Of a stretch of DNA of 64,000 bases, positions 52,362 to 55,267 are shown piece by piece. A model generated the notes under the pieces. It worked only from the letters and a program-made list of their open reading frames with translations. It was not told the origin of the DNA and made no database searches. The stretch is from Streptomyces sp. Je 1-369. Lineage in GTDB: Bacteria; Actinomycetota; Actinomycetes; Streptomycetales; Streptomycetaceae. The position numbers and the translations under genes were made by a program. The DNA lies in assembly GCF_026810505.1 (NCBI RefSeq), contig NZ_CP101750.1, positions 339,448 through 403,447 on the forward strand. The letters run 5' to 3'. Numbering within the stretch: position 1 is the first letter of the stretch; each line of letters starts with the position of its first letter.

Positions 52362-52899
52362 CGCCCAGCCCGTCTCGCAGCCCGTCTCCGGGCGCTCCCG
52401 TTTCCGCGCCCGTCTCGCCGGTCGTGCGCCCGCCCCTCCCTCGCCCGGCGCGGCGCTGCACAACATCAGCGCCGCGACCGCCGTGCTGCTGGTTCTGGTG
52501 GCCATAGGTTCCGTCATCCACGAGCCCGTGCTGATACCCCCGCTCGCCGCGTCCGCGGCGATCATTCACTGTGCGCCGGGGCTGCCGCTCGCCCAGCCCC
52601 GCAGTGTGATCGTCGGGCATCTGCTGTGCGCCGCCATCGGTTACGCGGTCGTCGCCGCGGCGGGCAGTTCGCCGTGGGCGGCGGCCCTCGCCGCCGGGGT
52701 CGGTCTCGCCGTGATGACCATGGCCCGTACCCCGCACTCCCCCGCGTGCGCGACCGCCGTCGTCATCGTCCTGAACGCACCGGGCCCCGCCACCTTCGTA
52801 CCTCTGCTCGTGGGCTCCGCCGGGCTGCTCGTCCTCGCGGGCTGGGCCGCCTCGTACGCCCGTCCCAGGGCACCGCGCTACCCCGCCTACTGGTGGTGA
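52339..52899 (+). CDS. HPP family membrane protein
   Basis: The 186-residue protein has four to five membrane helices: LHNISAATAVLLVLVAIGSV, PPLAASAAIIHCAPGLPL, SVIVGHLLCAAIGYAVVAAA, AALAAGVGLAVMTMA and FVPLLVGSAGLLVLAGWAA, with the P.LGASA-like and QP..V.GH.. features of the HPP family (here PPLAASA and AQPRSVIVGHLL). The family includes proteins linked to nitrite uptake in chloroplasts; bacterial role unclear. The start is TTG at 52339 with only GGAA upstream; no ATG is available. Confidence 0.78.
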   Translation: MSTDEIVDAQPVSQPVSGRSRFRARLAGRAPAPPSPGAALHNISAATAVLLVLVAIGSVIHEPVLIPPLAASAAIIHCAPGLPLAQPRSVIVGHLLCAAIGYAVVAAAGSSPWAAALAAGVGLAVMTMARTPHSPACATAVVIVLNAPGPATFVPLLVGSAGLLVLAGWAASYARPRAPRYPAYWW

Positions 52900-52952
52900 G
52901 CCCGGCGGATATTCACGTGCCCTCGGTCATCGGGCTCGTTATCCTCGGACGC

Positions 52953-53021
52953 ATGAACGTCACCGGCCCACACACCAACGCGACCGCGCGAGCGACCAGC
53001 TCGCCGGTTGCCGCCGCCTGA
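52953..53021 (+). CDS. alanine/threonine-rich leader ORF upstream of AlaRS homologue
   Basis: ATG at 52953 opens a 22-codon frame ending in three successive GCC alanine codons immediately before TGA (53019-53021); six of 22 residues are Ala and five Thr. TTATCC (52939-52944) is a -10-like hexamer eight bases upstream, so the ORF could be translated from a leaderless mRNA. A stable hairpin follows 15 bases after the stop. This arrangement is what ribosome-mediated control of an aminoacyl-tRNA synthetase gene would look like. Confidence 0.45.
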   Translation: MNVTGPHTNATARATSSPVAAA

Positions 53022-53036
53022 CGTCTTTCCCTCTCT

Positions 53037-53067
53037 CCATCGGCGACCGGAAACGGCCCGCCGATGG
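53037..53067 (+). promoter_or_regulatory. hairpin after the Ala-rich leader ORF
   Basis: CCATCGGC (53037-53044) pairs perfectly with GCCGATGG (53060-53067); a smaller CCG-GAAA-CGG stem is nested inside. It starts 16 bases after the leader stop codon, within reach of a ribosome stalled on the terminal alanine codons. Confidence 0.5.
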
Positions 53068-53153
53068 CGACCCCGTGGCTCGTACCCGAACCACCGATGA
53101 CCGTCGCTGGATCCTTCGTTGATCCATCACCGTGCGGACCCGTTGTCCGGTGC

Positions 53154-53177
53154 CTCCCCGCTTCGTACGCGAAGGAG
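53154..53177 (+). promoter_or_regulatory. hairpin sequestering the AlaRS-homologue ribosome-binding site
   Basis: CTTCG (53161-53165) pairs with CGAAG (53170-53174) around a TACG loop, and CTC (53154-53156) can pair with GAG (53175-53177) with a bulge. The paired GAAGGAG is the Shine-Dalgarno sequence of the gene starting at 53185, so the hairpin would lower translation unless opened. Confidence 0.45.
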
Positions 53178-53184
53178 CCACCTC

Positions 53185-54381
53185 ATGAACACCGACCACG
53201 TCGTCCGCACGTTCGTCGACTACTTCCGGGAGCGCGGGCACCGCCGGATCACCGGGTCGACGCTGTTGCCCCCGCCCGGCGACCCCGTACTGTTCACCAC
53301 CTCCGGCATGCACCCCCTCACCCCGTATCTGGAGGGGCGCCCGCACCCGCTCGGCGACCGGCTCGTCAACGCGCAGCGCTGTCTGCGGACGACCGACCTC
53401 GACGAAGTGGGTGACCCCACGCACCTCACCGTCTTCGAGATGCTCGGCACCTGGTCGCTGGGTGACTACGAAGGGCCGCAGAGTCTGCGGTGGGGGTACG
53501 AGCTCCTCACCGAGGGATTCGGGGTAGATCCGCGCATGATGCATGCCACCGTCTTCGGCGGCGACGACCGTACCGGCCCCGACACCGCTTCCCTGGAGGT
53601 GTGGGACGAGCTCGGCGTTCCCGTGGAGTTGACCGTGGAGGACAACTGGTGGTCCAACGGACCGACCGGGCCGTGCGGTCCCGACTCGGAGATCTTTCTT
53701 TGGACCGGCGGCGGGACCGGGGGCGAGGGCGTTCCGCCGCGGTCGTCGACGCCGAGCCAGGACGACCGGTGGGTGGAGATGTGGAACCACGTCACCATGC
53801 GCTACCGGAAACTCGACGACGGCTCGCTCGTTCCGCTCCCCCAGCGCAACGTCGACACCGGACTCGGCCTGGAGCGGCTGGTCTCCACTCTGCAGGGCAA
53901 GTCGTCGGTGTTCGAGAGCGACGTCTTCGAGCCCTGGCGGCTGCTCGTGCCGGGACTGTGGCCGCTGGACGAGACGTCGCTGCGGCTCGTCTGCGACCAT
54001 CTGCGGTCCGCTGTCGTGGTCATCGGCGACGGGGTGCGGCCGGGCAACACCGGTCGCGGGTACGTGCTGCGTCGGCTGGTGCGGCGGCTGCTCACCGTCC
54101 TCTGGCGTGAGCAGCCCGGAACGCACGGTCCCAGTCTCGGAGATCTGCCGGAGATTCTGCTGCGGCACACCTTGGACCACTTCCGTCAGGACATGGACCC
54201 CGTCGACGTACGCGTGATCCTGCTAGACGAGGAGCAGCGGTTCCGTCGGCTGCTGGAGCGAGGACAGCGGGTCCTGGCCCAGCCGCGGTTCCGAGGACCG
54301 CTGGACGAGGAGCGCTTGCGGTACCTCCATGACACGCACGGTCTGCCGCGCGACCTCGTGCTCAGCCTGCGGCCCGAGTGA
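53185..54381 (+). CDS. truncated alanyl-tRNA synthetase homologue (catalytic domain only)
   Basis: The 398-residue protein matches the class II catalytic and anticodon-arm domains of AlaRS: FRERGHRRITGSTLLPPPGD, PVLFTTSGMHPLTPYLEG, NAQRCLRTTDLDEVGDPTHL, FEMLGTWSLGDYEGPQSLRW, WSNGPTGPCGPDSEIF and NVDTGLGLERLVSTLQGKSS, then SAVVVIGDGVRPGNTGRGYV. It stops before the editing and C-Ala domains; full AlaRS has about 880 residues. It could charge tRNA without editing, charge a carrier, or serve as an antibiotic-resistant partial enzyme. GAAGGAG lies seven bases before the ATG. Confidence 0.88.
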   Translation: MNTDHVVRTFVDYFRERGHRRITGSTLLPPPGDPVLFTTSGMHPLTPYLEGRPHPLGDRLVNAQRCLRTTDLDEVGDPTHLTVFEMLGTWSLGDYEGPQSLRWGYELLTEGFGVDPRMMHATVFGGDDRTGPDTASLEVWDELGVPVELTVEDNWWSNGPTGPCGPDSEIFLWTGGGTGGEGVPPRSSTPSQDDRWVEMWNHVTMRYRKLDDGSLVPLPQRNVDTGLGLERLVSTLQGKSSVFESDVFEPWRLLVPGLWPLDETSLRLVCDHLRSAVVVIGDGVRPGNTGRGYVLRRLVRRLLTVLWREQPGTHGPSLGDLPEILLRHTLDHFRQDMDPVDVRVILLDEEQRFRRLLERGQRVLAQPRFRGPLDEERLRYLHDTHGLPRDLVLSLRPE

Positions 54382-54435
54382 TCGACACGGCGCGCGCGGG
54401 CAGGCGCGATCTACACGGCGCGCGCGGGCAGGCGT
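54380..54435. repeat. 28-bp tandem duplication at the AlaRS-homologue stop
   Basis: Two head-to-tail copies of a 28-bp unit starting GATC(G/T)ACACGGCGCGCG (54380-54407, 54408-54435), differing at two positions, followed by GATCT of a third. It begins inside the stop codon of the AlaRS homologue and fills the gap to the convergent gene. Confidence 0.85.
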
Positions 54436-54439
54436 GATC

Positions 54440-55267
54440 TCAGACTGCCGCGTCCGCGATCAGCTTGAGCGCCAGGGCCTCCGTTTCGGCGTCCGCCTTC
54501 TCCGGGCTCCCGGTGTCGTACGGCGGGTCCGGGTCGTACTCGACGGCGAGCTGCATCGCCTGCGCCACCTTGGTGCTCGAGAGGCGGGCGGCGAGGTAGA
54601 GGCCCATGTCGATGCCCGCGGAGACGCCCGCCGCCGTGATGATCTTCCCCGCTTCGACGAAGCGTCCGGGCTTGTACGTCGCGCCGACCTTCTCCAGGTA
54701 GAACCGTGACGCCCAGTACGTCGTCGCGGGGAGGCCGCGGAGCAGGCCCGCCGACCCCAGGATCAGCGAACCCGTACACACGGACGTCGTCCACACCGAG
54801 CGGCGGTGGACGCGGCGGATCCACTCGTGGGCCTTCGCGTCGTCCATCATCGCCGTCACCCCTCGGTCCCCTCCCCCGGGGACCACCAGGACATCGGCGC
54901 CGTGCACGTCCCGCATGGCACGCTCCGCCACCAGGCTCAGCTCACCCGTGTCCGTGCGGACCGGGCCCACCTCGCGGGCGACCATCGTCACCCGCACGCC
55001 CGGCACCCGGCAGAGCACCTCGTACGGCCCCACCGCGTCCAGCGCCGTGAAGCCGTCGTAGAGGAGCACCGCGACCTCCAGCCGGCCGCCCCGGGACGCC
55101 GCCCGGGCCGGGCCGCCGCTCACTCCGACCGCTGCCGCGGCTCCCGCTCCCACCGCCCCTGACACCGCGCCCTTCAGCACTCCTCGCCTGCTCGGCCGCA
55201 CCCGCCGGTCACCGTTCCTGGCGTCCGCGCCGAGTCCGTCATCTACGCCACCGCTGCCCGTGATCAC
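54440..55267 (-). CDS. Tat-exported DJ-1/PfpI family protein
   Basis: The 275-residue precursor has a twin-arginine signal: SRRGVLKGAVSGAVGAGAAA ending near PARA. The mature part is a DJ-1/PfpI domain as in the sensor part of GlxA regulators: LEVAVLLYDGFTALDAVGPY, DVLVVPGGGDRGVTAMMDD, and VWTTSVCTGSLILGSAGLL with the nucleophile-elbow Cys. No HTH is present. It may be an isonitrile hydratase-like or chaperone-like enzyme outside the cell. GTG at 55267 is preceded by GAGG; TTG at 55282 is possible. Confidence 0.82.
   Translation of the reverse strand: MITGSGGVDDGLGADARNGDRRVRPSRRGVLKGAVSGAVGAGAAAAVGVSGGPARAASRGGRLEVAVLLYDGFTALDAVGPYEVLCRVPGVRVTMVAREVGPVRTDTGELSLVAERAMRDVHGADVLVVPGGGDRGVTAMMDDAKAHEWIRRVHRRSVWTTSVCTGSLILGSAGLLRGLPATTYWASRFYLEKVGATYKPGRFVEAGKIITAAGVSAGIDMGLYLAARLSSTKVAQAMQLAVEYDPDPPYDTGSPEKADAETEALALKLIADAAV

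Follow-up and report, generated by a model that had tools for sequence, protein, structure and literature searches.

The genome of Streptomyces sp. Je 1-369, one contig of 8,820,026 bases, carries at positions 339,448 to 403,447 of NZ_CP101750.1 the 64,000-nucleotide stretch analysed here, to which we refer as the window and whose own numbering is used below; the promoter, leader, RNA segments and gene mapped in it lie on its forward (+) strand. In the window a short leader open reading frame (ORF), alaL, precedes alaS2, which encodes a short homologue of alanyl-tRNA synthetase (AlaRS). Judged from sequence comparison, the leader and the foldable RNA that accompanies it, which have stayed nearly unchanged across many Streptomyces relatives, very probably form a real switch operated by ribosomes. 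We favour, at a probability of roughly 55%, the model-based reading that this switch is a ribosome-sensing attenuator of a stress-inducible alaS2, in which stalling on leader codons 10–14 would raise expression in addition to activation by WblC.

The leader is the orthologue of a published prediction. In S. lividans TK24, alaL (SLIV_01313) lies upstream of alaS (SLIV_01315) and has been predicted to be an alanine-dependent attenuator (PMC8079986), so that the initial annotation, which knew of no alanine leader of this kind in Streptomyces, had overlooked a precedent. Both leader peptides have 22 residues (MNVIGRNIFATARATSSPVAAA in S. lividans, MNVTGPHTNATARATSSPVAAA here), the window leader having a C terminus of the same ATARATSSPVAAA type, and both stand directly before an AlaRS gene; one of the orthologous loci collected below (L018) carries a peptide identical to S. 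lividans AlaL. The passages of that paper that deal with alaL describe neither its structure nor its promoter and include no comparison or test of it. To this prediction we add a pairing scheme, orthologues, a promoter and the codons that are likely to be regulatory.

The leader ORF is conserved ahead of alaS2

The alaL frame (52953–53021) runs for 22 codons from an ATG at 52953 to a TGA at 53019–53021 and closes with GCC GCC GCC. Short AlaRS proteins (E ≤ 1e-70) are found in 22 of 121 genus genomes, 98 of 394 family genomes and 9 of 296 genomes of a class sample, three samples that overlap. The 176 alaS2 loci compared here come from these searches and a set of 62 named loci, together with 60 stretches fetched separately; because some genomes occur twice, 151 of the upstream stretches and 148 of the leader regions are distinct. 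The 62 named loci include Kitasatospora, Streptacidiphilus, Actinacidiphila, Kribbella, Planosporangium, Kineosporia and Streptosporangiaceae bins.

The leader core and the hairpin behind it recur at 173 of the 176 loci (148 distinct), in the Streptomycetaceae, Kribbella, Planosporangium and others, under a fuzzy pattern that allows up to nine changes in the core and two in the hairpin. The three exceptions (L082, L085 and L159) had been set aside by eye before that count. A stricter score passes 161 of the 176, and 12 of the 15 misses carry the leader element when read by eye. The conservation on which the initial annotation had staked its proposal is thus present. L082 and L085, both from Kineosporia, have a distant alaS2 preceded by a related short ORF that keeps CGCGAGC and by a different hairpin, which by eye is 13 base pairs (bp) long with no U-tract behind it. 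L159 is a natural break of the leader, where unrelated, possibly inserted sequence takes the place of the core and the hairpin is retained.

The leader stop lies at the same place in all 172 parsed loci, and 143 of the 170 leaders with a recognised −10 element have 22 codons. Counting codons back from the stop, the 58 distinct 42-nucleotide (nt) cores have Ala at codon −13 in 53, at −11 in 55 and at −9 in all 58, and CGA at −10 in all 58, a codon that accounts for 16 of the 290 Arg codons in eight window genes. At −13 Ala persists with any of the four letters as its third base, and at −11 it persists although the middle base is unpaired. The initial annotation had taken the three terminal Ala codons as the sensor; Ala is found there in 57 (−3), 41 (−2) and 41 (−1) of the cores, making the last two the least conserved Ala codons of the leader. 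On conservation and on the stall predictions given below, the regulatory codons are probably Ala10, Ala12, CGA13 and Ala14, within codons 10–14 (GCG ACC GCG CGA GCG, 52980–52994), and not the terminal run.

Predicted competing helices in and after the leader

The predicted folding energy of the RNA from 52953 to 53200 is −99.2 kcal/mol, whereas shuffled sequences give −80.3 ± 4.8 (z −3.9; 0 of 200 as good). Segment 1 (52980–52986 and 52988–52993), which codons 10–14 overlap, pairs with segment 2 (52999–53013), whose bases 52999–53011 form the 3′ arm of hairpin 1:2. Part of segment 2 (53004–53013, CCGGTTGCCG) is also complementary to segment 3 (53041–53050, CGGCGACCGG). Segment 3 belongs in turn to hairpin 3:4 (53037–53067), which begins 15 bases past the leader stop and consists of the arms CCATCGGCG and CGCCGATGG (53037–53045 with 53059–53067, the latter being segment 4), an upper CCG/CGG stem and a GAAA loop. 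This is the perfect post-stop hairpin of the initial annotation, correctly placed there and longer than stated, at 9 bp and not 8. Segment 5 (53140–53157, CCGTTGTCCGGTGCCTCC) is complementary to two stretches, namely segment 3 together with its loop and the region of the alaS2 Shine–Dalgarno (SD) sequence. Segment 6 (53174–53182), the SD GGAG with its flank, is masked by segment 5 in a hairpin spanning 53149–53182 that pairs GGTGcCTCC (53149–53157) with GGAGcCACC (53174–53182), as had been noticed at the outset.

Segment 3 can therefore pair with 2, 4 or 5, and the mutually exclusive 1:2, 2:3 and 3:4 complementarities are conserved. In an anchored alignment from which 13 rows were dropped, leaving 160 (136 distinct), the share of distinct rows that retain six core pairs in succession is 96% for 2:3, 95% for 3:4, 87% for 1:2 and 71% for 3:5. 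Compensatory changes also occur: across 47 sequences, cells in which both partners have changed number 38 for 1:2 and 3:4 together, where shuffles give 15.4, and 9 for 2:3, where shuffles give 2.9, the 9 all falling at one pair. When simulations on the tree serve as the null, the 5:6 helix (0 of 300 as good) and the loop side of 3:5 are exceptional, and these alone; upper 3:4 never varies.

A further helix, which we propose tentatively and call helix 0, would join leader nucleotides 4–10 (52956–52962) to the stop-codon region (53019–53025). An average of 5.8 of its 7 positions pair over 143 distinct sequences, against 0.7–2.3 when one arm is slid, and 0 of 2,000 shuffles of 47 distinct combinations do as well. 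On the tree, changes at a single position break pairing 52 times, keep it 14 times and restore it 28 times.

Ribosomes at the Ala-Arg-Ala codons are predicted to switch the RNA

We folded 144 distinct sequences with the ribosomal A site placed at −13, −11, −9, −7, −3 and the stop, these positions only. In RNA that extends as far as segment 3, pairing of 2 with 3 is close to 1.0 with the A site at −13, −11 or −9, falls to 0.42 at −7 and is 0 at −3 or the stop; with no ribosome it is 0.03 because 1:2 forms. Occupancy at −13, −11 and −9 thus switches the predicted fold, and the switching positions therefore hold the conserved Ala-Arg-Ala codons. A stall at −3 is not predicted to switch the RNA, which again speaks against the terminal Ala run as the sensor.

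A predicted WblC-type promoter precedes the leader

The published WblC motif consists of GAAAWY, 3 nt, a −35 element, 16–19 nt and TANNNT, with the start 7–8 bp after the −10 (PMC7157823). In the window, the upstream part (52908–52922) reads GATATT, CAC and then GTGCCC as the −35. The −10 element TATCCT (52940–52945) is separated from the −35 by 17 nt and from the leader ATG by 7 nt, which places a predicted leaderless start at 52953. The orthologues agree in motif and spacing. In 170 of 173 loci, 6 or 7 nt separate the end of TANNNT from the start of the leader. GAAAWY occurs 31–34 nt before the −10 exactly in 56 of 145 distinct promoters and in 128 when one mismatch is allowed, against 0–5 in seven control windows, and the spacer implied in those 128 is 16–19 nt. 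The −35 is weak, with nTG in 57 of the 128. From motif and position we infer a leaderless WblC-type promoter ahead of alaL, a feature that is new here. The suggestion that the leader ORF might be leaderless has motif support to this extent, and a transcription start downstream of 53021 is so far not indicated, judged solely by the promoter motif.

S. coelicolor alaS2 (SCO7600), a second AlaRS gene under a WblC-type promoter and the putative counterpart of the short form here, is reported to depend on WblC and on tetracycline (PMC7157823); the portions of that paper on this gene do not mention an alaS2 leader, whereas one is present here. thrS2 and trpS are named in the same WblC regulon (PMC7157823), and the S. 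lividans leaders thrL and trpL2, which precede thrS and trpS, are given beside alaL (PMC8079986); perhaps stress synthetases share this design.

AlaS2 is a predicted minimal AlaRS

The alaS2-type gene (53185–54381; ATG at 53185, TGA at 54379–54381) encodes 398 amino acids. Residues 1–391 align to AlaRS, and the protein stops at the tRNA-recognition domain. It consists of the catalytic and tRNA-recognition domains only, and domain and alignment comparison finds neither an editing nor a C-Ala domain, which bears out the truncation first read from the window. PF01411 places AlaS2 among the class II AlaRS proteins, and the NCBIfam alaS models score below their own cut-offs. A housekeeping AlaRS, an 892-residue open frame with 40% identity to AlaS2, is encoded at another site of the genome.

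The 120 listed homologues of AlaS2 span 388–423 amino acids and all keep R68, W156, N201 and D224, which we take to be AlaRS catalytic core residues, R68 being the motif 2 Arg. N288 is kept in 105 of the 120 and D383 in 118; these presumably correspond to E. coli N303 and D400, the Asn and Asp that read G3:U70. AlaS2 thus keeps the residues expected for AlaRS catalysis and for G3:U70 reading. Residue 288 is His, Ser, Ala, Pro or Gly in the other 15 listed homologues, and therefore some AlaS2 copies may have relaxed tRNA choice. AcmF of ascamycin biosynthesis is likewise an AlaRS-like protein cut down to the aminoacylation and tRNA-recognition domains, one described as lacking most activation residues and the Asp-plus-Asn pair (PMC12945691, in the portion on AcmF). 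AlaS2 differs in keeping the examined positions, and on these residues we reject an AcmF-like function.

Three further observations concern the gene and its surroundings. Directly 3′ of the alaS2 stop, at 54385–54440, a GC-rich 28-nt unit occurs twice in tandem with 27 of 28 positions identical. One homologous locus (L022) has a single TGA inside the alaS2 frame. In another (L079, S. zaomyceticus), which fails the stricter hairpin pattern, the leader is intact, yet the copy lacks segment 5, the SD region and some 25 residues from the N terminus of AlaS2.

Strong matches to the element lie at alaS2 in the genomes searched

Two covariance models were used: R1, for the family search, has its 3:4 stem offset by one column, and R2, for the own-genome and class searches, has the right stem. 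In the Je 1-369 genome R2 finds alaL at E 1.1e-15; the next match, at E 0.64, is not at the housekeeping alaS. R1 matches 44 of 150 family genomes at E ≤ 0.1, and the 39 below 1e-7 are all alaS2 genomes with the match just upstream of the gene. Of the remaining R1 matches, six were inspected and the one in genome G206 was left out; five seem unrelated and one (L221, in G261, at about 1471–1570) resembles a decayed leader in which CGA replaces the stop TGA, in a genome outside the 98 alaS2 family genomes. R2 matches 11 of 246 class genomes at E ≤ 0.01, nine at alaS2 and two (L219 and L220) unlike the leader. Control of other genes by the element is unsupported, with 0 matches below E 1e-4 away from alaS2 across the 150 family and 246 class genomes, which overlap, in searches of a size for which stricter filters apply and weak matches are lost.

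Across the window, every Rfam family stays below its gathering score, and 52850–53400 searched at E ≤ 5 returns three weak, unrelated names at chance level. A T-box was considered and rejected: none appears among the window matches at gathering score or in 52850–53400 at E ≤ 5.

Proposed mechanism

A WblC/WhiB7-type promoter would, on its motif and position, start a leaderless mRNA at the alaL ATG. At rest, hairpins 1:2, 3:4 and 5:6 are predicted to form, with 5:6 masking the SD. A ribosome stalled on Ala10, Ala12, Arg13 (CGA) or Ala14 would cover segment 1 and leave segment 2 free, and the free segment 2 could then catch nascent segment 3, delaying or preventing 3:4, as the folding and the conserved complementarity suggest. 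Expression of alaS2 would thereby rise, besides its activation by WblC, if charged tRNA-Ala ran short or elongation slowed, and the product, a small AlaRS that lacks proofreading, may help to keep translation going. The output could be termination at the U-less 3:4 hairpin, pausing, translation through 5:6 or a mixture of these.

A more elaborate form of this scheme is a tentative proposal that we hold to be doubtful. Segment 3, which is nearly invariant, would with its loop choose 2, 4 or 5 as partner, and ribosome position on the Ala-CGA-Ala codons would set both 3:4 and the masking of the SD, giving an AND gate for translation stress and alanyl-tRNA status in a WblC-activated transcript that has no U-tract and no Rfam match.

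The design resembles known systems in part. Ribosome-mediated attenuators have been predicted ahead of the trp operons, trpS and leuS of actinobacteria (PMC1262725), and share with alaL a leader ORF with cognate codons, here Ala codons in segment 1, and alternative helices; as far as those examples are described in that source, alaL differs in having no U-tract, in carrying an additional hairpin that masks the SD and in offering segment 3 a third partner. We do not file alaL as a trp-type transcription attenuator, given that no U-tract terminator is found at 3:4. In erm-type translational attenuation a leader ORF precedes a masked SD that stalling frees; alaL has the leader ORF and the hairpin-masked SD, and differs in that, in folds that leave out pseudoknots and kinetics, stalling is not predicted to release it. 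Our literature search, which covered few subscription journals, found no study of the mechanism or conservation of alaL and alaS2, and PMC11109978, searched for these terms, contains neither alaS nor alanyl.

Evidence against and alternative explanations

Several results weigh against an attenuator worked by ribosome stalling. With Ala as frequent as it is in these genes, six Ala codons among 22 are in themselves little proof. Near the end of 3:4 no T run exceeds three in 146 of 147 sequences, so that a U-tract is absent, and no terminator-like site was found in 52800–54600. Once segment 4 is present, 3:4 beats 2:3 also when the ribosome stands at −13, −11 or −9 (means of 0.60–0.70 against 0.07–0.27), and in the window sequence the values under stall are 0.75–0.78 against 0–0.04. 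At equilibrium 3:4 wins, and the 2:3 switch would therefore have to act kinetically, during transcription. The initial annotation had further expected stalling to shift the hairpins and free the SD; such release is not predicted, the SD staying masked with a mean unpaired probability of 0.11–0.15 in all states (134 of 170 sequences, folded without pseudoknots or kinetics).

The comparative evidence has its own weak points. Other CCGG-based pairings are also kept, in 63–82% of the 136 distinct anchored rows, and several pairings come for free because CCGG is self-complementary. For 2:3, counts of pairs and of pair types are no higher than in shuffles (488 and 486 of 500 as high), and the shuffles for 1:2, 2:3 and 3:4 ignore relatedness. 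Simulations on the tree do as well in 28–95 of 300 cases for 1:2, 2:3, lower 3:4 and the core of 3:5, which are therefore unexceptional, and an unguided covariation scan returns no significant pair (best E 5.75). The covariation looked for in the stems is thus seen as some compensatory changes and, beyond 5:6 and the loop side of 3:5, is weak against the tree; it cannot prove more because the sequence hardly varies. As to the promoter, the WblC box of the window has one mismatch.

An account in which alanine matters less is unlikely, though credible. The leader would be a general sensor of translation stress, responding to ribosomes slowed by antibiotics or any other cause, as does the upstream ORF (uORF) under whose attenuation wblC itself stands (PMC7157823, PMC12421871), and its Ala codons would mainly be demanded by RNA pairing. 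The WblC-type promoter and the reported WblC and tetracycline dependence of S. coelicolor alaS2 fit this account, as do the placing of most of the conserved codons inside paired segments and a CGA as invariant as the Ala that follows it. It sits poorly with Ala being kept at −13 despite a variable third base and at −11 despite an unpaired middle base, with the cognate synthetase lying downstream and with the absence of model matches below E 1e-4 away from alaS2 in the family and class genomes searched.

Control of translation through segment 5 is an improbable alternative that draws on the same helices. Segment 3 with its loop would either pair with segment 5 as an anti-sequestor (ON) or leave it to the SD (OFF), the choice being set by leader translation, and a stall early in the leader might even reduce expression. 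As long as the SD has not been transcribed, 3:5 is indeed favoured, at 0.83 with no ribosome, 0.97 with one at the stop and 0.47–0.59 with stalls at −13, −11 or −9; on the loop side 3:5 does better than 299 of 300 tree simulations, loop variants of segment 3 appear by eye to be compensated in segment 5, and the missing U-tract fits as well. Yet 5:6 wins once the SD is made (means of 0.80–0.97), only 73.5% of loop-side cells pair and the self-complementary CCGG again supplies pairings at no cost. That the leader merely boosts downstream translation by reinitiation, as the relevant part of PMC4833913 proposes for many actinobacterial leaders, is very improbable: short leader ORFs are common in Streptomyces, but the stop-to-start distance peaks there at 10–11 bp, as against 163 nt in the window and a median of 130 nt (5–95%, 106–170) over 148 distinct loci, and the conserved pairing would be left unexplained.

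Implications

With its probable regulatory codons, competing helices and promoter located and conserved across several genera, the predicted alaL attenuator is now testable. If attenuation by stalling on codons 10–14 is true, actinobacteria under translation stress would layer amino-acid-specific control over WblC and deploy a minimal AlaRS that lacks proofreading, which would link antibiotic tolerance with possible mistranslation.
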